Source of the DNA: a virus
IMG/VR virus record: IMGVR_UViG_3300021964_000498
Span: 1-24,824 of that record
Direction: 5' to 3' (one strand)
DNA length: 24,824 bases
Every line of letters starts with the position of its first letter. Within the stretch, counting starts at the first letter, position 1. The notes under the pieces were generated by a model. That model saw only the letters and a list, made by a program, of their open reading frames with translations, was not told where the DNA came from and made no database searches. The position numbers and the translations under genes were made by a program. Shown one piece after another: positions 1 to 19,111 of this stretch.

Positions 1-74
1 GTTGATTTCTTTTTACTACGGCTGATGCCTAGTTTACGTCTTCTGTTTATGTTTGCGTATAGTCCTTGTTTCAT
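1..74 (-). CDS. Small basic KGLYANI-type phage protein (partial, C-terminus outside window)
   Basis: Only the first 24 codons are inside the window. The protein starts MKQGLYANINRRRKLG and continues with serines and lysines (SRSKKKS). This resembles a family of very short, lysine- and arginine-rich phage proteins that begin with KGLYANIN-type sequences and are common in marine podoviruses and cyanophages; their function is not known. The ATG at 74-72 overlaps the TGA of the preceding membrane coiled-coil gene (ATGA), so translation is probably coupled to it. A GGAG lies about 14 nt upstream, too far to be an ideal ribosome site. The reading frame is open to the window edge. The family assignment rests on recalled sequence similarity only. 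Confidence 0.72.
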   Translation of the reverse strand, partial: MKQGLYANINRRRKLGISRSKKKS

Positions 75-322
75 CGTTTCATTAACATCTCCATCATGCG
101 GTCTAGTTTATGGCTGATCTCTTTAACACTGCTCTCAAGACCCGTCATACGGTTCTCAACAGCGGTGTCTCGTTCACGTTGTGCAGCCAGTTCTACTTCA
201 ATCTTTGTTAAACGTCTCTCATCACTATCCAACCGATCTGTCAGCTTTTTAATCATCCACCCAATAACACCAAGAACGATGGCAAGGGCAGAGTCGAGAA
301 AGTGTGAGACGGATTCAGTCAT
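71..322 (-). CDS. Membrane-anchored coiled-coil protein, candidate lysis-associated protein
   Basis: An 83-aa protein with one hydrophobic segment near the N-terminus (about residues 9-24, SALAIVLGVIGWMI) and then a long charged helix (about 26-80) with heptad-like spacing, rich in E, R and K. The shape, a short N-terminal anchor followed by a coiled coil, is seen in inner-membrane spanin subunits and some holin or hemolysin-XhlA-like proteins. It lies after the tail fibre genes, where T7-like phages carry holin and Rz genes (17.5 and 18.5), which supports a lysis role. I see no family-specific motif, so the function is inferred from topology and position. The start ATG at 322 follows the previous stop by a few bases and has no clear Shine-Dalgarno; the stop overlaps the next ATG (ATGA). 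Confidence 0.75.
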   Translation of the reverse strand: MTESVSHFLDSALAIVLGVIGWMIKKLTDRLDSDERRLTKIEVELAAQRERDTAVENRMTGLESSVKEISHKLDRMMEMLMKR

Positions 323-326
323 CCGA

Positions 327-1067
327 TTACACTACTATCCTAAGTTCTCCTGTGGAAGTTTTATAAACGTCGTTTGTAGCCAAACCTCCGCTTGTAGCTG
401 CACTGTTGTCAGCAAAGGTTGGAAGATTGGGGATTTGAGGAATAATGTAATCAACGGCAGATAGTGTTTTTCTTTCAAACTCAATAGCTTGCTTATCGCT
501 TCCTCCACCTCCAGCTGCGACAGAACCTACAGAAAACTTACCGTCTGCTGAAGAAACATTATAAATACCTTTATCTGTAGCTGACTGACTCGCATCTTTT
601 AGTTGTATAATAGCATCTTGCTGTGCAGTGCAAACTAGTATACCGTCATTACTTGCTCCTGTGCTTTCAATAGTCATTACAGCACTCGCTGTAGAAGATG
701 TAATACCTACTTGAGATATAGTTTCTAAAGAAGAATCATTTAAATCACCACCAATGCGTACTTGGTCAGAGGTATTTATTTTAAATACTGCGTCAGTCGT
801 ACTGATCTTATCGTGTGTAACAGCTCCTGTAGTGATAACCGTATCTCCATCTCCTGTGGAAGTAACTTCACCAGTATGATCAGGGTGCGAGTAAGCATCG
901 CTTGCCTTCGCTAGCTCAGTGCTATCCGGAATACCGGGCAGTGGTGGGACAGTGTGTACTATTAAAGTCTTTTTATCGGTGTCTACTGTTACTTCACCGT
1001 CCGCTCCCTGAAAGCCAGCGTGTTGTGAAGTTGTTCCTCTTCTTAATTTTACTTGTATGTTTGGCAT
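327..1067 (-). CDS. Short tail fibre protein with Mtd_N-like N-terminus (third fibre gene)
   Basis: A 246-aa fibre-like protein. It begins with an RRGT-containing N-terminal module (residues 4-38, KLRRGT...GFQGADGEVTVDTDKKTLIVH) of the kind found at the N-terminus of the Bordetella phage Mtd tropism determinant and many phage fibres, where it mediates trimer attachment. The centre is rich in T, S, G, D and A and looks like beta-structured fibre shaft. Near the C-terminus there is a Gly-rich stretch (AAGGGGSDKQ), then the sequence LPTFADNSAATSGGLATNDV and a TGELRIVV end, which resembles recalled C-termini of marine phage fibre proteins. It shares its first 35 residues in pattern with the preceding 230-aa protein, so the pair are paralogues with different shafts. 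No Shine-Dalgarno is visible before the ATG at 1067. Confidence 0.83.
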   Translation of the reverse strand: MPNIQVKLRRGTTSQHAGFQGADGEVTVDTDKKTLIVHTVPPLPGIPDSTELAKASDAYSHPDHTGEVTSTGDGDTVITTGAVTHDKISTTDAVFKINTSDQVRIGGDLNDSSLETISQVGITSSTASAVMTIESTGASNDGILVCTAQQDAIIQLKDASQSATDKGIYNVSSADGKFSVGSVAAGGGGSDKQAIEFERKTLSAVDYIIPQIPNLPTFADNSAATSGGLATNDVYKTSTGELRIVV

Positions 1068-1103
1068 AGTTAGTTGTGGTTATTGGTTCGCTTTGCTCTC
1101 ATC

Positions 1104-1132
1104 GTGTTTACTTACTATCGTTCGATAAACAC
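1104..1132 (-). other. Inverted repeat directly after a fibre gene stop codon
   Basis: A 7-bp perfect inverted repeat (GTGTTTA at 1104-1110 with TAAACAC at 1126-1132) begins on the base after the TGA of the 230-aa fibre gene. The loop region holds a second palindrome, ATCGTTCGAT (1117-1126), that competes with it. No U-run follows on the transcribed strand, so it is not a standard intrinsic terminator. It may stabilise or separate the two fibre messages. The role is inference only. Confidence 0.35.
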
Positions 1133-1825
1133 TCATGCGATTGATCCAAAGTCTAATGTTGTTGATAGTCTGTCTGAGTTTACTGATCCGTTTGTAAGTC
1201 CTACCTTAGCTGTATTTAAAGCTACAGCAGCAGAATCTGTATAACTGATCTTTGCAGTGTTAGCGGCTACAGCAGTGTTGTTAGCTACTTCCGTGTCAAA
1301 GTCTGAGATAGTAGATGCAGTCTGTGTACCTGTGTGATTACTTCTGTTTCTATTGTTTGTGTCTCTTGTGTTTAACTCAGTAGTAGTTTCAAAGTTAGCT
1401 ATATCAGAAGTCTGTACAGGAGCAGCAGCGGAAGCAGCGGTATTAAAGTCACTTATCGTACTGGCAGTTTGTGTACCCGTGTGATTAGCTCTATTCTTTA
1501 AATTAGCATCACTATCATTAGCAGTAGCACCGTCAGCTACGTTTAACAATGTTTGAGTCTGTGCCACGCTTAACTCTAATATATCAGAAGAACCAGCTGT
1601 ATTGTTACCAAGTATCGTATTGGCTGGTATCTCTTCTATCTTAGCGAACGTAACGGAATCATCAGCAATCGACGCTAACGATCCAACAGGAGTACCACCA
1701 GCAGTAGAACCGTCGTGTACAAACAAGTCCTTGGTATCGGTTGTATATACTAGCTCTCCCTCTTGCCCTATAAACGTAGCGTTATCAGCAGCCGTCCCTC
1801 TTCGTAGTTGTACTTCAATACTCAT
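1133..1825 (-). CDS. Short tail fibre protein with Mtd_N-like N-terminus and NHTGTQTAS repeats
   Basis: A 230-aa fibre-type protein. Residues 5-40 (QLRRGTAADNATF, then EGELVYTTDTKDLFVHDG) form the Mtd_N-like attachment module. The shaft contains two exact copies of NHTGTQTASTISDF at residues 114-127 and 163-176, separated by a T/N/A-rich linker, which is typical of repetitive trimeric fibre shafts. The C-terminus (RLSTTLDFGSIA) is short, without an obvious receptor-binding head, so it may be an adaptor on which the next fibre gene builds. It follows the gp17-like gene directly: a strong Shine-Dalgarno (GGAGG, 1833-1837) lies inside the end of that gene and decides the ATG at 1825. Host recognition is the likely role; the receptor is unknown. 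Confidence 0.83.
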   Translation of the reverse strand: MSIEVQLRRGTAADNATFIGQEGELVYTTDTKDLFVHDGSTAGGTPVGSLASIADDSVTFAKIEEIPANTILGNNTAGSSDILELSVAQTQTLLNVADGATANDSDANLKNRANHTGTQTASTISDFNTAASAAAPVQTSDIANFETTTELNTRDTNNRNRSNHTGTQTASTISDFDTEVANNTAVAANTAKISYTDSAAVALNTAKVGLTNGSVNSDRLSTTLDFGSIA

Positions 1826-2617
1826 TTATGCAATTCCTCCGTAGCTGTAAGATGCGGTTACTGGATCACCCACTATACTACCGTAATCAAAATCAGTAGG
1901 TACATCCGTTATAGCTGTTTTATATCCCCTTTCAATAACAAGTATCTCTTTAGTATTAGCGGGAGGAGAATCAAAACGTATTTCGTTACTTAAACCTACG
2001 ATTGTATAGTCGTCAGGATCGATTACCTCTCCGTCTATTGTAACTAGAAAAGCAGCAGACGTGGTAACATTACTACTAAATGTCAGTGTAAAGTCTGTTT
2101 CAATACCGTCCCCTGTAAATTTACTAAAACTGGGAGGATTACCTGTATCTTGGTTTATTGCAGATATAGCACTGTCAACATAGCTTTTGGTTGTAGCGTC
2201 GCTGGCCCCACTGGGAATACCTACATTTATAATACGTTCACCCTTTGCGTCCCACGCTGTACTACCTTGAACTTTCTGCAACGACGCATCGTTTAGTTCC
2301 CCTATCTCTTGGTGCAAATAACGATTGTGACGATACGCTCTGTCTAGCTCTGACTCTGTTAATACTGATCCGTTCTCAAAGTCTACAAGGTCTGTGTCAC
2401 GTTGACTCTGTCTCCTTACTCGTACATTAACACCGTTACCGGGAGCAGTTGTCATTTCCACTCGCTTGGTAGGCAGGTCTGTATTGATGGTAAAATCAGA
2501 AGTATCAACACCGTCTACCGCAACCGTTACGTGTTCATCTTCTAAGTATTCAAAGTTGATGGCAAAGAAAGTATTACTACCGTCTCCTGTATAATCGTTG
2601 TAGGTTGGTGTTGGCAT
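1826..2617 (-). CDS. T7 gp17-like tail fibre base protein
   Basis: A 263-aa protein whose first 150 residues match the N-terminal tail-attachment domain of the T7 gp17 family: YNDYTGDGSNTFFAINFEYL, a V-VDG strand, then RVRRQSQ, a DF-NGS-LTESELD--YRHNRYLHQE helix and IPSGASDATTKSYVDSAI. In T7 this domain fixes the fibre to the tail tube; the T7 protein is 553 aa, so this one lacks a long shaft and tip. Residues 167-231 repeat the N-terminal module (KFTGDGIETDFTLTF, VTIDG, VIERGY). It ends YSYGGIA at the start of the next fibre gene. The short length suggests it is the base of a multi-protein fibre with the next two gene products. There is no Shine-Dalgarno; an AT-rich leader precedes the ATG. 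Confidence 0.92.
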   Translation of the reverse strand: MPTPTYNDYTGDGSNTFFAINFEYLEDEHVTVAVDGVDTSDFTINTDLPTKRVEMTTAPGNGVNVRVRRQSQRDTDLVDFENGSVLTESELDRAYRHNRYLHQEIGELNDASLQKVQGSTAWDAKGERIINVGIPSGASDATTKSYVDSAISAINQDTGNPPSFSKFTGDGIETDFTLTFSSNVTTSAAFLVTIDGEVIDPDDYTIVGLSNEIRFDSPPANTKEILVIERGYKTAITDVPTDFDYGSIVGDPVTASYSYGGIA

Positions 2618-2621
2618 GATA

Positions 2622-2635
2622 TTATATTATTACTT
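2622..2635 (-). promoter_or_regulatory. AT-rich leader motif AAGTAATAATATAA before gp17-like gene
   Basis: This 14-nt word lies 4 nt before the ATG of the gp17-like gene, where a Shine-Dalgarno would be expected and is missing. The identical word lies 3 nt before the ATG of the 105-aa gene at 21055, and the first ten bases (AAGTAATAAT) recur across the start of the gp16-like gene at 7256. A role as an A/U-rich translation initiation element is inferred from the repeated position. Confidence 0.4.
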
Positions 2636-2657
2636 ATTGAGCGAGGAGTTCAAGCAC

Positions 2658-5600
2658 TTAAAAGCCTACAAAGTCTGTTAGAACCTTTAATTGTTTATTT
2701 TGTAGCCCTTCGTTTGTTATCTGATTAGTCCACGAGTCGCCATCTGTATCTAGATAATTGTTTCTAAAATCTTCATCCTGTTCTATTTGTTCCCACACGT
2801 CGTTTTTAAAACTTGTAACTTTATTAGATATTAAATCAGCTTTAGTTGCGTCGTCTGCGTTCACTTTAACCTGTGGTGCATTCATGTATTCAGGTGAATT
2901 AATTAAAATATTTAAATTCTGTCTTAACGTAAGCCCATCAAAATCAACAGTATTAGACATTTTATCCATCCATGCGTCATATAAAGACTGACCTGTCCGT
3001 TTGTGATAGAACTTCCTAGTATCCATTCCACTCTTTCTGTAAGTCTGTGTCTGTCCTAGCTTGCCTCTTAATCCTGCTATCTCAGTCATGATAGGATCAT
3101 TCTTTTTGTCAGACCAAGTTATAGGGCTTATTATCCCCCACCAACCGTCCATACTCCAGACTCTCTCTACTTTCTCACCCAATAGATTTCTACGATATTG
3201 ACCGGGGTGTATTCCTAGCATTCTTTCTTTTGCACGAGCTTGCCATTCAACTGCTTCTCTTTGAAATTGTTCGTTTATCGCTACTAAATCACGAGTCATC
3301 GTAGGACTGAGAGACATAGCCCAACCTCTAGGAATATCCATAGCAGTCTTTTGAGGGTCTAACGCCACATCCAAAACCTCGTACAACCCTGTTATGAAAT
3401 ACTTATTGGTCATATTCTCAACAATAGAAGCACTTAGTGCGTCCACAAATGTTTTGTCAGTATCACTAAGTTCATCAAAAGTTAAACCAGTCATACCCAT
3501 GTAATGAACAATATCTGCCATAGAAGACATGAAAGTAGACCAAGGTTCTAAACGTTGATAGCTGATTCGTTTCCCTGCTATCGTAATACTATTAGGTCTC
3601 CAACCAGCATCAACTAAACGCTTTCTTTGTTCCGTTGTTAAGTAAGCTCCTGTACCTGATATAGCACCAGTAGTAGCAGCGTAAGCCAATGATGAAGTTA
3701 AAGCTACTCCCATTATCATATTAGTCATAGCTTCAGCTTCTTGTTCTTTTAACTTCAGCGTTAAATCTTGCTGTTCTCTATATAGATCGTCTAATGTTTT
3801 TTCCGTTTCTCCTATGACGTCTTCCGAGGCTCCTTTAGCAGTTCGCATTGCCTCCCCTTTTTCTATGTCATCAGCCAATCCTTTAAGTTGTTTATGTAAC
3901 GGTGATTGTTTCGCTACAAACTTATAAAGGAAACCACCAGCAGCGGTAGGCGGGAAGTGATCTAAGCCAAACTGAGCGATTGATGTAGGTGTTTTTATAA
4001 ACGGAACCTGTAGTCTTAAAAGTATTTTTAGAGGATTGTAATGTGCATCTTCTCCACCTCTAGTCCATCTAGCAAAAGCCCTTGCAGTTTGAGAGAAATA
4101 TTTATCAGCGTAATCAGCTTGGTATGTTATAGATAAAGCCAATTGTTCTACCTCGTTAAACTCTTCTTTACCTGCCCATTGCGGAAGTCCTTCTGACTCT
4201 CGAAACGCTTCCTTCATTCTTTTATCTACATAGTCATTCAAAGCTTTAGCGTCCAAACCTTTACCGATACCTTCGCTCATCGCCAAAGAACGCATAGCTC
4301 TCATTAGTCCCATGGCTTTAAACGGTTCATCCATAACACCCATAGCTCTAAAGCTTATAGAAAACAACGGATCAAGAGCTTTACCTATCTGAGTAGTAGG
4401 TTCTCCTTCTAACATTTCTAACAAAAACTTTCTTAACCTAGTCTCATTACGTTCAGTCTTTACTCCGTACTGTTTGATTAATTCTGTTAGTTTCTTTTTA
4501 TCTTTTAAAGCAACCTTAATAGGTGTCGCACTAACAGCCACCTCGCCCGCTTCCATTAAATCTTCTTCATGCCTCCTAAAGGATTTAGGTAAAATAGCTG
4601 ACTGTCCTTTGTCTTTGTAGGTCTGCTTCATCAAGTCCCAAAACGTAGTAAAGTTAGAGAAGTATTCCGACATCCCTTGTACCTCTGCTTTCGCTAACTT
4701 AAAAGCCTCAGCTGTAGATATATCCTCAAAAGGGTTTGTTTTGGCTTTTATGAAAGCTTTAACAGCTTGCTGTATGGGCTGGTATACAACATTAAAAGCA
4801 GCAGTAGGCACACCAACTAACCAAGTACGAGGACTGAATAACATCATATTCATTCGCACTGTTTCAAAAGCTCTTAACATTAACTCAAATGTACCTGAAG
4901 CTGCTTGGTCAAATTCTCTAAAACCTGACAACTCTCTAATTAATTTCTCAGCTAATTCATTCTCAGCTTCTATATCAGCGTTCTTTACTTTTTGTTTGAG
5001 AACTTGTTTAGCTTTCCGTGCTTCTTGTTGTAGTAAAGCTATGTCTTGCGGTGTATTGTTTTCGTTAGCTTTTTTAGCTAAGTACTCCCGTATTTCTTTA
5101 ATACTTTTATCAGACATTTCGTCTAATTCTTTTATGTTCGCTCTTAAATTAAACTTTTGAAATAACTCCTTCGACCTAAGTTTTCGTATAACATCATCAC
5201 GCATTTCAGCCAACGCATTACTCAAGTCAGCTCTTACGTGATCTAATAATACTTCTTTTTCTATCGGACCTAAATCAGTCTTTTTAGCTATACGGTCAGC
5301 TACTTCATCAACAAGCACACGTTCGTTACCTTCTTTAATAGCTTTATTTAAACTCGTGCCAATGCTTTTTAATTCGTCGTTTATTATTTTATTAACAAGT
5401 TTTGCTCTGTTAGGTAGTACATCGAATAAACGTTTACCTTCCTTGCCTGTTAATAAATCGTTTAAAACTTTTAATGCTCTGCTTTTATCTTCTGCTTTTA
5501 TATTTTTAGCATCAGATATTTCCTTAATCGTTTTAGTTATAGACTCACGATACTTCTCAGGATTGGCTAGTATATCTTGTACATTATCTAAAACAGACGA

Positions 5601-7256
5601 TACTCGCTTAGCAGCCTTTTTATTACTCTTAACTGCGTCTGTTAATGTAGTTGTAATCCGCTTGGAGAATATATCTAGGGATGCTTTTTGTTGTGGTACT
5701 TTTTTCTGTAGAGTCTTAGATACATTCTCAGCAATACTCCGCTGGTACTTAGACCAAATGTTTTCAACAGCGTTATTTAAAGAACGTCCAAACGTGGCAT
5801 CTAAAGCATCAGACAGTGTGCCTCCTTTGATAACACCATCTACATCTGCTATCTCTTTCTTTAAACTGTCTATTATAAATTCGTCTTTTATTTTTCCATC
5901 CTTAACGTCGCCTACTAATTTAAGTAAGTCGTCTATCTGATTCATCCGTTTTAAGACTTCGGGTTTATACACCATAGACTTACTAAAGAAATCCAAAGGA
6001 TCAGCAGCAAAGGCTCTAAGAGATTGTCCAGTTATTCTACCAGCCCTAGCTCGTATCTCCATCAACTTTCTGTATCTTCTTACATCAGTTTCAAAAGTAC
6101 TTAAAATAGCTCTAACAGATTCAATATCTTTCTGCTTCAACAAATCCATCATCTCTATGATCTTAGGATTCATACGTTCAGCTACACCTTTCTCTAAGTT
6201 CACCATCCTTCGTATCTGATCCGGTAAACTAGACGCTCTGTTTATATATTCCTCAATGTCTAACTCAGGACTCTTAGGCTCTTCTTTTTTTAGTTTAGGT
6301 GCTTCTGCATCAGCCTTTTTGAAAGCTTCTTCTTTTTTCTCAGGTGCAATATCTTCTTTGGGTTTAACATCACCGAACAGTTCATCTAACTCTGGGTCTA
6401 CCTCGTCTACTATATCATCCTTTGGATTTAACTCAGTAAGAACGTCGTCTTTGATTTTGTTCTCATCCTCGATTACTTTCTTTAATTCTTTCAGTGCAAT
6501 ACGAGCGTCGCCTTTACCCTCGGCAGCTTGGCGTACTTTCTTTAACGCTTTAAACTTACGCCACACCATGCCTGTATATCGACCTACACCAAATGTGGTT
6601 AAGTTAACGCCAGCTCCTAAAAGTCCACCTTCAATCGTTGCCTGTAATCTTTTCTGAAAAGCTTGATCTGCTTCGTGGTCTTCTATGTCTGTTGTTATAT
6701 AATCAGCAACAGCACCTCTTAATGCCCCCTCCGATGCTATACCAGCTAGTCTTGCTGCCTTTTTACCCTTGGGTGTCTTTGTTATTAGACCTGTCAGTTT
6801 TGTTGTTTTAGCCGACAGTCCTGTAGCTTTGCTTACACCTTTTATTGTTGTAGATATAGCACCGCCGGGAACCCAAAACGATCCTAACCACGATCCTATC
6901 TCAGCAGTTATGTCTTCAGCAGCACTTTGTGGTTCTTCGAATAATTCATCTTCCCATCTAGCTCTTGTAGAAAACTCAAACCACTCATTTAAAACATTAT
7001 ATATGTCCTCGGTCGCCCGTACTGGTATTCTACTTAGCGTCCTTGTAACATCTCCCCTTCTCTTAGTCCACGATGTAAAACTGTCCCAGTAATCGTCATC
7101 CTCACCTAAGTCAGCAGGTTCAGGGTCTAAAGTGGTATAGTCACGTAGGGGCTTTGTTGTTTCCCACCAGTCTTGCTGAGTACTTAAACTAGGAAGCGAT
7201 GTCGCCTCGACTGTAGGAGCCGTGGTATCCCACCAATCATTTTGTGGATCAGCCAT
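2658..7256 (-). CDS. Giant internal virion protein (gp16-like, internal core protein D)
   Basis: A 1532-aa protein, about the size of T7 gp16 (1318 aa) and in the same place, between gp15 and the fibre genes. In T7 this protein is ejected ahead of the DNA and forms part of a channel across the cell envelope. The N-terminus has repeated acidic-aromatic motifs (DWW at 7-9 and 29-31, DYW at 55-57). A K/E-rich, helical middle (about residues 230-770) follows, then hydrophobic or amphipathic segments near 800-830 (MMLFSPRTWLVGVPTAAFN) and near 1190 (MIMGVALTSSLAYAATTGA) that could insert into membrane. I do not see the lytic transglycosylase domain that T7 gp16 carries at its N-terminus. The C-terminal GQYRRNLLGEKV and SMDGWWGIISPI patterns resemble recalled large internal proteins of marine podoviruses. 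It starts 2 nt before the gp15 stop codon. Confidence 0.85.
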   Translation of the reverse strand: MADPQNDWWDTTAPTVEATSLPSLSTQQDWWETTKPLRDYTTLDPEPADLGEDDDYWDSFTSWTKRRGDVTRTLSRIPVRATEDIYNVLNEWFEFSTRARWEDELFEEPQSAAEDITAEIGSWLGSFWVPGGAISTTIKGVSKATGLSAKTTKLTGLITKTPKGKKAARLAGIASEGALRGAVADYITTDIEDHEADQAFQKRLQATIEGGLLGAGVNLTTFGVGRYTGMVWRKFKALKKVRQAAEGKGDARIALKELKKVIEDENKIKDDVLTELNPKDDIVDEVDPELDELFGDVKPKEDIAPEKKEEAFKKADAEAPKLKKEEPKSPELDIEEYINRASSLPDQIRRMVNLEKGVAERMNPKIIEMMDLLKQKDIESVRAILSTFETDVRRYRKLMEIRARAGRITGQSLRAFAADPLDFFSKSMVYKPEVLKRMNQIDDLLKLVGDVKDGKIKDEFIIDSLKKEIADVDGVIKGGTLSDALDATFGRSLNNAVENIWSKYQRSIAENVSKTLQKKVPQQKASLDIFSKRITTTLTDAVKSNKKAAKRVSSVLDNVQDILANPEKYRESITKTIKEISDAKNIKAEDKSRALKVLNDLLTGKEGKRLFDVLPNRAKLVNKIINDELKSIGTSLNKAIKEGNERVLVDEVADRIAKKTDLGPIEKEVLLDHVRADLSNALAEMRDDVIRKLRSKELFQKFNLRANIKELDEMSDKSIKEIREYLAKKANENNTPQDIALLQQEARKAKQVLKQKVKNADIEAENELAEKLIRELSGFREFDQAASGTFELMLRAFETVRMNMMLFSPRTWLVGVPTAAFNVVYQPIQQAVKAFIKAKTNPFEDISTAEAFKLAKAEVQGMSEYFSNFTTFWDLMKQTYKDKGQSAILPKSFRRHEEDLMEAGEVAVSATPIKVALKDKKKLTELIKQYGVKTERNETRLRKFLLEMLEGEPTTQIGKALDPLFSISFRAMGVMDEPFKAMGLMRAMRSLAMSEGIGKGLDAKALNDYVDKRMKEAFRESEGLPQWAGKEEFNEVEQLALSITYQADYADKYFSQTARAFARWTRGGEDAHYNPLKILLRLQVPFIKTPTSIAQFGLDHFPPTAAGGFLYKFVAKQSPLHKQLKGLADDIEKGEAMRTAKGASEDVIGETEKTLDDLYREQQDLTLKLKEQEAEAMTNMIMGVALTSSLAYAATTGAISGTGAYLTTEQRKRLVDAGWRPNSITIAGKRISYQRLEPWSTFMSSMADIVHYMGMTGLTFDELSDTDKTFVDALSASIVENMTNKYFITGLYEVLDVALDPQKTAMDIPRGWAMSLSPTMTRDLVAINEQFQREAVEWQARAKERMLGIHPGQYRRNLLGEKVERVWSMDGWWGIISPITWSDKKNDPIMTEIAGLRGKLGQTQTYRKSGMDTRKFYHKRTGQSLYDAWMDKMSNTVDFDGLTLRQNLNILINSPEYMNAPQVKVNADDATKADLISNKVTSFKNDVWEQIEQDEDFRNNYLDTDGDSWTNQITNEGLQNKQLKVLTDFVGF

Positions 7257-14978: not shown

Positions 14979-16070
14979 TTACTTCTGAAGTTCGATAGCA
15001 CACTCAGGACGGAGGATTCCGTGACCCATAGCATACTTCGCAACGAAAAGCGTACCTTGACGCTCAATTTGGTACTCAGATTCAGTAGCCAAGTCGAGCA
15101 GTTTAACTGTTCCAACAGCAGCGGAATGAGAAACAATACCAAGTGTGTTAAGGAAGTTTCCGTTGTATCCTACGCCTCCAGTACCGAACACATCATTAGA
15201 AGCCAATCCGTCACCTGTAGAAACAGCAGACAAATCAGTTGATGGGATGTGGTTGGATTTGTAGATAGTGATACCTGCAATCTGTGGGATTGATCCAGAA
15301 GCAATGCTTCCTAAACCTCCGACGTCTTTATTGACAGCAGAAGTAGAGATAGCGAGCGTTCCTGCACCACCAGTGATTAACTTGTAGTACTCTTGAGGAC
15401 GAAGAACGCAGAAACGACCGTCACTAGGAACATCGTTTTCGTCGAGCTTCTGAGCTGCAGTAAAGAGAGCAGCTGTTAATTCAGCACCTGTAGGATCAGT
15501 GTTGTCTGCATCATCAAGTGAGTCAGCACCTGTACCCATTGCGTTAGCAGAAACGTCAAGAATACCACCAGCTGGGCGACCAGACAAGTTAGCGTCAGAA
15601 CGAGCAGCAGCAATGAATACTTTAGCAAGAGCTTCATCGAAACGTTTTGCAAGAGCCTTACCCAACTCGTTAGCGTAAACGCTGCGGATGTCGTAGTGGT
15701 TCTTCATGTCATCGATGTTAGCCAAGAAAGTAGAAGCTACTAACATATCATCAATAGTGATAACACGTTCTGTTTTCTTGATGTCACTAAGGTATTTGCT
15801 TGTTGCTCCACCTTCCTCAGCGATGTTCTCACCGGGTGTGTGGTAGTTAGCCGAAGCAATACCTGTTACTGGGAACTGAGCGGATTTACCGTTCTCAATT
15901 GTACGAATAGTGTGTAGTGGTTTAAAGATGTTAGACTCTTCAAAGCTTTGCAGAATTTCTCCGCTGAACTTTTTGAGGAACAACTCGTTGTTATCAGTAC
16001 CTGCAACTAATCCTGCTCCAGCACCTCTAAGACCTACACGACTGGGATCTGTTATACCTTCTCCTGCCAT
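14979..16070 (-). CDS. Major capsid protein (gp10-like)
   Basis: A 363-aa major capsid protein of the T7/HK97-fold class (T7 gp10A is 345 aa). Typical parts are the N-terminal GADNNELFLKKF-like stretch (here GTDNNELFLKKFSGEILQSF), IFKPLHTIRTIENGKSAQFP, TGIASANYHTPGENI, the TIDDMLVASTFLANIDDMKN block, the FDEALAKVFIAAARSDANLS helix and YAMGHGILRPECAIELQK at the end. Hundreds of copies build the head around the scaffold protein encoded upstream. A strong Shine-Dalgarno (AGGAG about 10 nt upstream) decides the ATG at 16070. It is preceded by the longest untranslated stretch in the right two thirds of the window, which fits separate, high expression. Confidence 0.95.
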   Translation of the reverse strand: MAGEGITDPSRVGLRGAGAGLVAGTDNNELFLKKFSGEILQSFEESNIFKPLHTIRTIENGKSAQFPVTGIASANYHTPGENIAEEGGATSKYLSDIKKTERVITIDDMLVASTFLANIDDMKNHYDIRSVYANELGKALAKRFDEALAKVFIAAARSDANLSGRPAGGILDVSANAMGTGADSLDDADNTDPTGAELTAALFTAAQKLDENDVPSDGRFCVLRPQEYYKLITGGAGTLAISTSAVNKDVGGLGSIASGSIPQIAGITIYKSNHIPSTDLSAVSTGDGLASNDVFGTGGVGYNGNFLNTLGIVSHSAAVGTVKLLDLATESEYQIERQGTLFVAKYAMGHGILRPECAIELQK

Positions 16071-16191
16071 AATATATAATCTCCTATGTTAAGTTATTAA
16101 TTGATTGTGTTTGTTTGGTTGACTTTCACTTCGTTCGTTCACACAGGATTGTCCTCCGCAGAGGGTCGAGGGACTAGTAGTCGCTAGTTGT
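16071..16191 (-). promoter_or_regulatory. Capsid leader with two small hairpins, candidate promoter/processing region
   Basis: This 121-nt gap is the only sizeable non-coding stretch inside the head genes. On the transcribed strand it contains a hairpin ACTAG-CGACTA-CTAGT (16173-16188), then CCTC-TGCG-GAGG (16153-16164), then an AT-rich tail and the AGGAG of the capsid gene. T7 has its strongest late promoter in this place. The string GCGACTACTAGT is faintly like the core of a T7-type promoter, but the match is gapped and lacks the GGGAG start, so I call only a leader or regulatory region. Confidence 0.4.
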
Positions 16192-16314
16192 CTAATTAAA
16201 TATGTTACCGATTACTATAAGACCAATAAATGCACCAATTGTCAACACTAGGACTTTCTGACGTGGTGGTAGATCGTTGTAGATTCTAAGTAATCTTTCT
16301 ATTTGATATTTCAT
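16192..16314 (-). CDS. 40-aa single-span membrane peptide, candidate holin-like
   Basis: A small frame with ATG at 16314 and TAG at 16192-16194. The protein starts MKYQIERLLRIYNDLPPRQK, a positively charged N-terminal half, followed by one hydrophobic span (KVLVLTIGAFIGLIVIGNIF) that ends two residues before the C-terminus. The positive-inside rule predicts N-in, C-out. The start overlaps the end of the lipoprotein gene by 29 nt, so the two are probably co-translated; upstream bases are purine-rich (AAGAAAG) but not a strong Shine-Dalgarno. Small peptides of this form occur as holins, pinholins or lysis modulators in phages, and the neighbouring lipoprotein has spanin topology. It is also short enough to be a chance frame. 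Confidence 0.6.
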   Translation of the reverse strand: MKYQIERLLRIYNDLPPRQKVLVLTIGAFIGLIVIGNIFN

Positions 16315-16732
16315 CTTTTGCTTTCTTGTGTACGTATCTCGTATATATGATTGGTATGACATTCCACAAGACTACACCGATGAGGCACAGCTTTAGCAAG
16401 CCATAAATTTCGTTTAACATACCGTCAAAAAACCCGTTATCCATTGACGCATCTAGTTGATTATTAACGAGTTGCTTTATATCTCCTTCACTTAACGCCT
16501 TGACTTGTTCCGTTAAATGTTTGTTTTCTTCCATGTATTTGGCTGTTTCTCCCACACCCCAACCAAGTGCAGCACCACCAGCAGCGGTTCCCGGACCTCC
16601 TAAACTACCTACTGCTGCTCCACCCGTAGCTCCGAGAGCCGGATAAAATGATGCCTTGGAACAACCCGCAAAACTCCCCATAACCGATAAAAGGGAGAAA
16701 ACTAAAGCGAGTCGTCCAAGGCATCTGTTCAC
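16286..16732 (-). CDS. Lipoprotein with C-terminal transmembrane anchor, candidate unimolecular spanin
   Basis: A 148-aa protein with a GTG start at 16732. The N-terminus is a lipoprotein signal: basic MNRCLGR, hydrophobic LALVFSLLSVMGS, then lipobox FAGC with Cys24. A glycine-zipper-like stretch (residues 34-61), a helical charged region (62-105) and one hydrophobic span (about 111-131, GLLKLCLIGVVLWNVIPIIY) follow. The last 17 residues are positively charged (HKKAKDEISNRK), which suits a cytoplasmic tail. Outer-membrane lipid anchor plus inner-membrane C-terminal span is the topology of one-component spanins such as phage T1 gp11, which fuse the two membranes at lysis. The position between scaffold and capsid is unusual for a lysis gene. 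An alternative is a Gly-zipper envelope protein for superinfection exclusion. Confidence 0.8.
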   Translation of the reverse strand: MNRCLGRLALVFSLLSVMGSFAGCSKASFYPALGATGGAAVGSLGGPGTAAGGAALGWGVGETAKYMEENKHLTEQVKALSEGDIKQLVNNQLDASMDNGFFDGMLNEIYGLLKLCLIGVVLWNVIPIIYTRYVHKKAKDEISNRKIT

Positions 16733-16756: not shown

Positions 16757-17542
16757 TCATATATTACTCACAGCCAGTCGTCTGTCAATCTCTTGATGAT
16801 AAGCTTTGTCACCACTACGATAACGTGGGTCTGACTGTGCACGTGCTAATTCTTGCATACTCTTAAACGGCATGGTTGATGAACCACTAACCGCACCTTG
16901 CACTAAAGTTTTTGGACGACTGCCTGTAGCATTCTGATAACGAGCGTATAGTCCTTGTACTGCTAACTTCGCTTGTTGTACTGACCCAGACGTGACGGCT
17001 TCGTCAAACGCATCGACCTCTTCGGATGGTAAGTGTTCGTTTGCCCATTCAGCCATCTGATCGTAGTCACCACCTGCCACTCCTTTGATCTGGGCTTCTT
17101 CTGATTGTAATAAAGCTTGTTGACCAGCTGCGTAACTATCGACGAGATCACGTGGTAGTCCTACTTTTTCAAGCTTTTGATAAGTTTCATCAGACAGCTG
17201 ACCGTCATTTTGAAAGAACTCCTGACTAGCTTCCACAACAGCTTCGTTATAATTACCAGCTTCTGGCTTGTCGTTTTCATTCTCGGTCTCTTCGGTTTGT
17301 TGTGGTTCTTCTTCGGCTTGTTGCTCTTCGGCGGTTGGTTGTCCAAGTTTCTTCTCAAGCTCACTATAAGCGTTCGCCATGTCTTCCGCTGACTTGAACT
17401 TTTCAGGTAACCATTCAGGACGTTCTTCCGTCGATGCTTGTTGTTCTTCCGTAGTCTCAGCAACTTCGTCAGTCTGAGCTGCTTCGGGTTCGATCTCATT
17501 CGGTGCTTTCTCGTTAATCTCTACTCGGTGTAGTTCTGCCAT
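16757..17542 (-). CDS. Scaffolding protein (gp9-like)
   Basis: A 261-aa protein between portal and capsid, the position of the T7 scaffold gp9 (307 aa). The first 100 residues are extremely rich in E, Q, T and A (for example EPEAAQTDEVAETTEEQQAS), and the protein has the typical RPEWLPEKFKSAEDMANAYSE segment, also seen in other marine T7-like scaffolds. A conserved GGDYDQMAEWANEHLP helix and a C-terminal FKSMQELARAQSDPRYRSGD module follow; the C-terminus of such scaffolds binds the capsid protein. It would be lost from the mature head. A GAGGA lies about 11 nt before the ATG. Confidence 0.92.
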   Translation of the reverse strand: MAELHRVEINEKAPNEIEPEAAQTDEVAETTEEQQASTEERPEWLPEKFKSAEDMANAYSELEKKLGQPTAEEQQAEEEPQQTEETENENDKPEAGNYNEAVVEASQEFFQNDGQLSDETYQKLEKVGLPRDLVDSYAAGQQALLQSEEAQIKGVAGGDYDQMAEWANEHLPSEEVDAFDEAVTSGSVQQAKLAVQGLYARYQNATGSRPKTLVQGAVSGSSTMPFKSMQELARAQSDPRYRSGDKAYHQEIDRRLAVSNI

Positions 17543-17548
17543 AATTTA

Positions 17549-19111
17549 TTATTCCTCGGTAGGTTGTTCTTGTTGTGTTGCCATGTACTGCTCCTGTGCA
17601 GCATTGATAGCGGGTGCTACGGCAGGGCTTCCCAACTTCATCATCATCTCTTGTTGTTGTTGCATCTGCATAGCTTGTTGAATCTCTTCTTCCGTCTTGA
17701 TTAGTCCCTCAGTTTCTATACCAAGAGCAGTAGCACGACGCTTGAAGTAATCAGATACGTTAAGATATTGATTGACTGCTTGTGGTCCTACTACCTGATT
17801 AGCACCAGCAAGAAACATATCAAGACGATTAAGATCATTACCACGACCCAATGCTTCCACACCAGTAACGATGGTAGGTTTAACAATATCCTTGGGTAGC
17901 TTAGGTAGTCGTTTCTCTTTGGACATACGATCCATCAAACGAGTGACGATAGGCAGTTGCATCTCCTGAGCTAAGAGAGAGTAGAGACCACCGAGGGCAG
18001 CTTCAAGCTCTTGGCTTAACATCCGTATCTCCTCGGCAGTCACTCTCTCGGCATCTCTAACAACCCCCGATGTCAGTAGAAAGGCTTGGCTCAATCGATC
18101 TGTTATACCAGCCATTGTAGTCTGTGCTGTCCGTAGATCGTTGAACTTATTAAGTTGTAAGACGGAGACGTCTCCTTCGCTGCCTTGTACAATCGCACCG
18201 TTAGGAGCTTCAGCCAGTGTCCTTGCCCGTGTCGTTCCGTTAGGATTGACCATGAACAATACCTTAGCTGCTGCTGCACTGGCTTCTACGATTGATTTAG
18301 TTAACGACTCCAACGAGCGAATGTCTCCGATATACTCTTCAACAAATCCACGTCCGTAGTCTTCTCCATCTATTTGAGTGTAACGCAAGGGTAGCCACGG
18401 GGACTTTTCTAACGGATAACGTCCTACGCTTTCCTCGATCAGCATACCCTTTACGTCTTGATACACTTTAAATTCATCATCTTCACGCACGATAGCAGTG
18501 TACAAATCACACGTGTTTTCTTTCTCTTGTCTGTACACTTCTTCCCGTACCGACTCAGGTAACATCATAGGTGCTACTGTTTCTTTCACAGCTATGTGTG
18601 TAACGTTACCCATTGGATCACGCTTAACAACGTAACGATCCAACTTAAATGTTCTCATACCTCCTTCGTCCGGCAAGTATAACAAAGCGTTACCCGTGAT
18701 CAAAAGATTCTTGAGTGCTTGAAATATACCGTTCCTAAAGTTCTGTACTTCTACTTCCTGTGATACACTACGTTCCACATCAGCTAAAGCTTTCTCTAAG
18801 TCTGTACGTAGCTGCTCTGCACCCTCTTGCCCCAGTTCAGCTTTCGCTTTGTCTAACTCGTATCTATCTATAACAAGACGAAAGAACGGAGCGTTCGGTG
18901 GTAGTAAAGCTAACAATAACTTAGACGATAGATTCAGAACACCACGTGCTCCTATGCCTTGGTACGGTGTGTAGTATTTAGTGGCGTAGTTGTGCCCGTC
19001 AGGAGGCAGTACATAGGGTAGGGTTAACTCTGACGATTGACGTCCTCTGTCTAAAAACGACCACCGCTGGTTCTCTAACGAATGGTATAACCCTTGGGCT
19101 GTTTCGTGCAT
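17549..19111 (-). CDS. Portal protein (gp8-like head-tail connector)
   Basis: A 520-aa homologue of T7 gp8 (536 aa), the dodecameric portal through which DNA is packaged and ejected. Signatures are SLENQRWSFLDRGRQSSELT, LPYVLPPDGHNY, YQGIGARGVLNLSSKLLLAL, LPPNAPFFRL, LKNLLITGNALLYLPDEG, PLRYTQIDGEDYGRGFVEEY and LTSGVVRDAERVTAEEIRML. The C-terminus is Q/M/E-rich. It starts ATG at 19111, two bases after the stop of the 75-aa gene, and ends six bases before the scaffold ATG. Confidence 0.95.
   Translation of the reverse strand: MHETAQGLYHSLENQRWSFLDRGRQSSELTLPYVLPPDGHNYATKYYTPYQGIGARGVLNLSSKLLLALLPPNAPFFRLVIDRYELDKAKAELGQEGAEQLRTDLEKALADVERSVSQEVEVQNFRNGIFQALKNLLITGNALLYLPDEGGMRTFKLDRYVVKRDPMGNVTHIAVKETVAPMMLPESVREEVYRQEKENTCDLYTAIVREDDEFKVYQDVKGMLIEESVGRYPLEKSPWLPLRYTQIDGEDYGRGFVEEYIGDIRSLESLTKSIVEASAAAAKVLFMVNPNGTTRARTLAEAPNGAIVQGSEGDVSVLQLNKFNDLRTAQTTMAGITDRLSQAFLLTSGVVRDAERVTAEEIRMLSQELEAALGGLYSLLAQEMQLPIVTRLMDRMSKEKRLPKLPKDIVKPTIVTGVEALGRGNDLNRLDMFLAGANQVVGPQAVNQYLNVSDYFKRRATALGIETEGLIKTEEEIQQAMQMQQQQEMMMKLGSPAVAPAINAAQEQYMATQQEQPTEE

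Follow-up and report, generated by a model that had tools for sequence, protein, structure and literature searches.

The sequence analyzed here (the window) is an entire IMG/VR contig of 24,824 bases. It represents part of the genome of a T7-like phage, with transcription running on the minus strand. The portal, scaffold, and capsid proteins match Pfam families, as do the tail tube and gp14-type proteins, and among named records Ayaqvirus S45C18 has the closest capsid protein (58% identity). Between the scaffold and capsid genes lie two small genes for membrane proteins, one encoding a 148-aa lipoprotein with a C-terminal transmembrane span (LIPO148, a candidate unimolecular spanin or u-spanin) and one encoding a 40-aa peptide with a single span. 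The features of this cassette and its surroundings are collected in Table 1.

Table 1. Features of the window around the scaffold-capsid slot, with the evidence for each
Feature	Position	Strand	Evidence or remark
Portal gene	17549-19111		Pfam family match
Scaffold gene	16757-17542		Pfam family match
LIPO148, 148-aa lipoprotein with C-terminal transmembrane span, candidate unimolecular spanin	16286..16732	-	GTG start; conservation, dN/dS
LIPO148 signal peptide, residues 1-23	16664..16732	-	Hydrophobic core in all 38 variants, sequence variable
LIPO148 lipobox FAGC, lipid cysteine Cys24	16661..16672	-	xxGC in 38/38 distinct variants
LIPO148 Gly-zipper-like stretch, residues 34-61	16550..16633	-	Weak PF13488 match, Gly/Ala positions mostly invariant
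LIPO148 C-terminal transmembrane span, ~residues 112-130, then basic tail	16343..16399	-	Hydropathy, flanking charges
40-aa peptide, basic N-terminus and one C-terminal span	16192..16314	-	ATG at 16314, stop to 16192; homologues at 127/127 loci
UNCG-type hairpin CCTC TGCG GAGG	16153..16164	-	Conserved upstream of capsid gene
Capsid gene	14979-16070		Pfam family match
83-aa protein, one span then coiled coil	71-322	-	Accompanies both cassettes; weak matches to PHROGs of lysis proteins

A preliminary description of the locus had proposed the 148-aa lipoprotein with its FAGC lipobox (Cys24), C-terminal span and basic tail, followed by a 40-aa single-span peptide overlapping the end of the lipoprotein gene by 29 nt; the coordinates and all of these features were confirmed. 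Searching with the LIPO148 protein by tblastn, followed by confirmation of the matches, identified at least 131 viral contigs that carry the gene. Among the 38 distinct LIPO148 variants, the lipobox glycine, the lipid cysteine, the mature N terminus CSKASFYP, and the C-terminal span are all kept, while the signal peptide is free to vary and yet always ends in xxGC after a hydrophobic core. The preliminary description had named loss of the lipobox or of the C-terminal span as evidence against its proposal; no variant has lost either. In all 38 variants, a middle region of fixed length (86 residues) precedes the best C-terminal hydrophobic window, the periplasmic part contains no cysteine, the span has a mean hydropathy of at least 2.0, and acidic residues before the span and basic residues after it give a positive-inside charge distribution. 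With a median dN/dS of 0.12, LIPO148 is under purifying selection.

The preliminary description had singled out a Gly-zipper stretch. Most of its Gly and Ala positions are invariant and LIPO148 matches the Gly-zipper_Omp family (PF13488) over residues 32-71, but the score of 16.8 bits lies below the curated cut-off of 25; the hydropathy of the stretch is too low for an obvious span. An AlphaFold model of LIPO148 was poor (mean pLDDT 49) and consisted of helix and coil, with an ectodomain that is not visibly beta-rich. No LIPO148 relative was found by a scan of GTDB genomes, a PDB profile search gave only noise, and Pfam and PHROG scans of both LIPO148 and the 40-aa peptide returned nothing above threshold.

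A homologue of the small peptide (34 to 42 aa, one C-terminal span) follows LIPO148 in 127/127 checkable loci, always between the scaffold and capsid genes, so the pairing noted in the preliminary description is conserved across related phages. The conserved features of the peptide are its single span and basic N terminus. A longer in-frame ORF of 56 aa, starting at 16362, was rejected, its N-terminal extension being absent from a divergent clade. The 40-aa call is considered correct because in that clade the small peptide starts at or just beside the LIPO148 stop codon. Given the 131 contigs, the kept lipobox and span, the dN/dS of 0.12, and the peptide at 127/127 loci, the LIPO148 ORF and its peptide are more than chance open frames. 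Outside the cassette, in the leader that separates it from the capsid gene, a UNCG-type hairpin lies ~92 nt 5' of the capsid start. It is present in 95/107 distinct upstream regions, in four perfectly paired stem versions with a fixed TGCG loop followed by ACAAT, and looks like a conserved RNA element. Scans for sigma-70-like promoters and terminators gave hits at chance level only.

A census of the slot in this group covered 209 loci with both scaffold and capsid genes, of which one contig may supply several. LIPO148 occupies 119 and an alternative cassette occupies 90; each locus has one or the other, and none has both. The alternative is built around HOL3TM, a three-transmembrane protein of 154-155 aa; in front of it there is usually CC, a protein of 105-124 aa that combines an N-terminal span with a coiled coil. 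Among long records, CC is found in 14/16 with HOL3TM, a co-occurrence that mostly reflects tight linkage inside the cassette, vs. 1/22 with LIPO148 (record G039, which codes for a CC homologue as well). A phylogeny of 119 capsid genes (58 from LIPO148 loci and 61 from HOL3TM loci) requires 10 switches of cassette type, and well-supported branches enforce no fewer than 9 of these; the window's own nine-member capsid clade contains both types. Nine loci have CC and HOL3TM followed by a C-terminal fragment of LIPO148 and, where the sequence was read, the small peptide; these remnants are a trace of replacement. The slot is read here as a probable lysis-gene site, at which sister phages repeatedly swap LIPO148 for unrelated lysis-like genes.

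HOL3TM genes (e.g., L052 656-1123 and L093 5264-5728) also encode a lipoprotein, read from a nested gene in the +1 frame. The nested signal and lipobox are present in 71/71 and 8/10 distinct HOL3TM genes (79/81 in total), whereas permuting synonymous codons, which keeps the HOL3TM protein unchanged, gives an expectation of 0.00014 and 0 nested lipoproteins per gene. In the 155-aa HOL3TM genes, synonymous variability drops from ~0.3 to 0.08 at codons 61-75. HOL3TM itself has no detectable homology to known holins: a Pfam scan that included PF11351 (GTA_holin_3TM) gave no hit, and hhalign against a bona fide member of that family returned a probability of 0.7%. In profile comparisons, neither of two 3-TM proteins showed homology to HOL3TM.

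CC belongs to PHROG_20984, a family widespread in SAR11 phages. In 7/13 phage records an annotated endolysin (peptidase M15 or lysozyme) lies within ~2.5 kb of the CC gene and in 6/13 none is nearby, a count that rests on the deposited annotation. In Pelagibacter phages (e.g., L251 3938-4360 and L248 4001-4384), members of PHROG_20984 are single-span coiled-coil proteins often encoded near M15 peptidase or lysozyme genes. The family is a candidate i-spanin family of SAR11 phages. By analogy, CC resembles an i-spanin, the nested lipoprotein an o-spanin, and the 3-TM protein a holin. The sister cassette recalls the embedded architecture of Rz/Rz1: a membrane-protein gene harbors a lipoprotein gene in its +1 frame, and the partner is a single-span coiled-coil protein. 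The difference is that the harboring gene is the 3-TM holin-like one, whereas in embedded Rz/Rz1 it is the i-spanin gene. In the window, a single protein would take over the work of both spanin components.

The same slot recurs in other phages. In Limnohabitans phage YIMV22061 it is occupied by a GTA_holin_3TM protein (PF11351, 64.6 bits; PHROG_3427 holin), a family that the sister HOL3TM does not match by HMM or profile comparison. Pseudomonas phage LUZ100 resembles the window in having a small membrane protein (gp37, 65 aa, PHROG_9685) and a lipoprotein (gp38, 63 aa; L262 1675-1866) between scaffold and capsid. LUZ100 gp38, which unlike LIPO148 lacks a C-terminal span, matches the Rz-like spanin family PHROG_1275 (1.6e-12), and the paper on this phage reported no spanin found (PMC10134795). 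In Ayaqvirus S45C18 the slot holds a PHROG_9685 protein and then a 104-aa ORF; a lipoprotein ORF that overlaps the latter gives a weak match to Rz-like proteins. Other related phages have basic small ORFs alone or nothing in the slot, with no membrane gene annotated in some. The preliminary description was right that the cassette sits among head-assembly genes and had regarded this as odd; because several other Autographiviridae have lysis genes at this place, the position is no longer puzzling.

Other lysis genes were sought in the relatives of the window. No endolysin was recognized in ten long relatives by a search with six Pfam families (amidase_2, amidase_3, two M15, phage lysozyme, and SLT), and no endolysin domain was found in the large internal proteins of several of them. 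The search works on such records, since the amidase_3 of Ayaqvirus was detected by it. The ten relatives searched include a complete one (G001; L120-L122), and the records of 36-47 kb seem to be complete or nearly so. The lysis pathway is thus incomplete as described here, and either an enzyme of an unrecognized family or a different lysis scheme would account for it. The contig of G001 carries ~7 kb repeated at its ends (135-7020 and 39862-47220) in slightly different copies, as if two strain variants had been joined or the genome were redundant.

An Rz/Rz1 pair elsewhere in the genome, which the preliminary description had regarded as evidence against its proposal, was not recognized in any of the four near-complete LIPO148 relatives (G001, G002, G003, and G006); a 44-aa lipoprotein ORF is present in G001 alone. 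Nor did the near-complete relatives yield another protein with both outer- and inner-membrane anchors. The 83-aa protein at 71-322 was considered as an i-spanin; a KK immediately follows its span and it accompanies both cassettes, two points that speak against its being the swapped component.

LIPO148 shows the sequence-level u-spanin features examined here and falls outside the T1 gp11 sequence family. A published survey describes 13 u-spanin families, in which 58/58 proteins lack periplasmic cysteines; the ectodomain of T1 gp11 is beta-rich, a property typical of u-spanins and not strictly defining (PMC6139136). LIPO148 shares with T1 gp11-type u-spanins the N-terminal lipobox, the single C-terminal span, a similar size, and the absence of periplasmic cysteine. 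It differs in its middle region, a Gly-zipper and probable helix with no recognizable beta character, and in its location between the scaffold and capsid genes and not beside an endolysin gene. No sequence similarity between the two was detected: tblastn with LIPO148 against 50,697 phage records (INPHARED, which should include most phages with known u-spanins) found no match at E values up to 1. The u-spanin topology advanced in the preliminary description is strengthened by the conserved features and the missing cysteines, while homology to T1 gp11 was not detected.

We propose that LIPO148 represents a new candidate family of u-spanins, located in a lysis slot whose content is exchangeable, and assign this reading a probability of roughly 0.7. 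It rests on the topology, the strict pairing with the small peptide, the exclusive replacement by the other cassette, and the lysis families in the same slot elsewhere. The protein is probably built to bridge both bacterial membranes and to burst the outer one. After export, the signal peptide would be removed and Cys24 lipidated, which would anchor the N terminus in the outer membrane. The C-terminal span would remain in the inner membrane, its basic tail in the cytoplasm, and the 86-residue cysteine-free middle would cross the periplasm. When the cell wall has been broken down late in infection, LIPO148 molecules may collapse and thereby fuse the inner and outer membranes. Most likely the co-encoded peptide takes part in this lysis step as a small holin-like or regulatory membrane peptide. 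To our knowledge, the mechanism by which u-spanins work is not known.

The complementarity of the two cassettes makes a reasonably strong case that LIPO148 stands in for a two-component spanin. The corresponding argument that the 40-aa peptide replaces or assists a holin is weak, because the 83-aa transmembrane coiled-coil protein accompanies both cassettes and could itself be a holin or regulator. The mini lysis cassette suggested in the preliminary description gains from the conservation of the pair and from its repeated replacement by a holin-like and two-component-spanin-like cassette. A more specific proposal is offered tentatively, as possible but doubtful: the slot would be a lysis exchange site at which a one-protein spanin and a two-protein spanin, the outer-membrane partner of the latter nested in the +1 frame of the holin gene and not of the inner-membrane partner's gene, have replaced each other on nine or more occasions, and the enzyme with which these phages degrade the cell wall would fall in no recognized family. 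No description of the slot, the swaps, or the nested arrangement was found in the literature searched, which does not prove novelty.

The main rival is superinfection exclusion or envelope modification, in which the pair would alter the cell surface or inner membrane early and exclude further phages. Lipoproteins and tiny membrane peptides serve exclusion in other phages, and, like many moron loci, this one is mosaic, with a pattern of swapping that also fits host-envelope-modifying morons. Morons, however, are usually present or absent, whereas one or the other cassette is found at all 209 loci; moreover, the cassette lies among late structural genes, its same-slot alternatives in other phages are lysis families, and the alternative within the group consists of coiled-coil, holin-like, and nested lipoprotein genes. 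The preliminary description had raised exclusion on the strength of the Gly-zipper; this explanation gained no support, and we regard it as unlikely.

LIPO148 might instead be a late lysis accessory that tethers the membranes or regulates the holin while another protein ruptures the outer membrane. Such a role would be compatible with the lack of a recognized endolysin, with the weak matches of the universal 83-aa protein to PHROG lysis families, and with the Gly-zipper middle, which sets LIPO148 apart from the beta-rich T1 gp11. We consider it quite improbable, as the topology of LIPO148 matches that of u-spanins in every clearly testable point and the near-complete relatives offered no second dual-membrane-anchored protein to do the rupturing. 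A head-assembly or virion role, with the pair aiding capsid assembly at the membrane, would explain the fixed site between the scaffold and capsid genes but is very unlikely: the lipoprotein signal exports LIPO148 away from assembly, unrelated membrane proteins freely replace the pair, and in some related phages the annotation shows no membrane gene in the slot.

Reading LIPO148 as a candidate u-spanin in a lysis slot explains why lysis-like genes stand among head genes, and adds to the class a candidate whose Gly-zipper middle contrasts with the beta-rich T1 gp11. It also provides function hypotheses for PHROG_20984, an unnamed family common in SAR11 phages. The interchangeability of one- and two-component spanins has been argued mainly from complementation in Escherichia coli. 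Uncultured marine T7-like phages appear to have made this exchange many times at one genomic address, and would thus offer matched natural pairs for a direct test.
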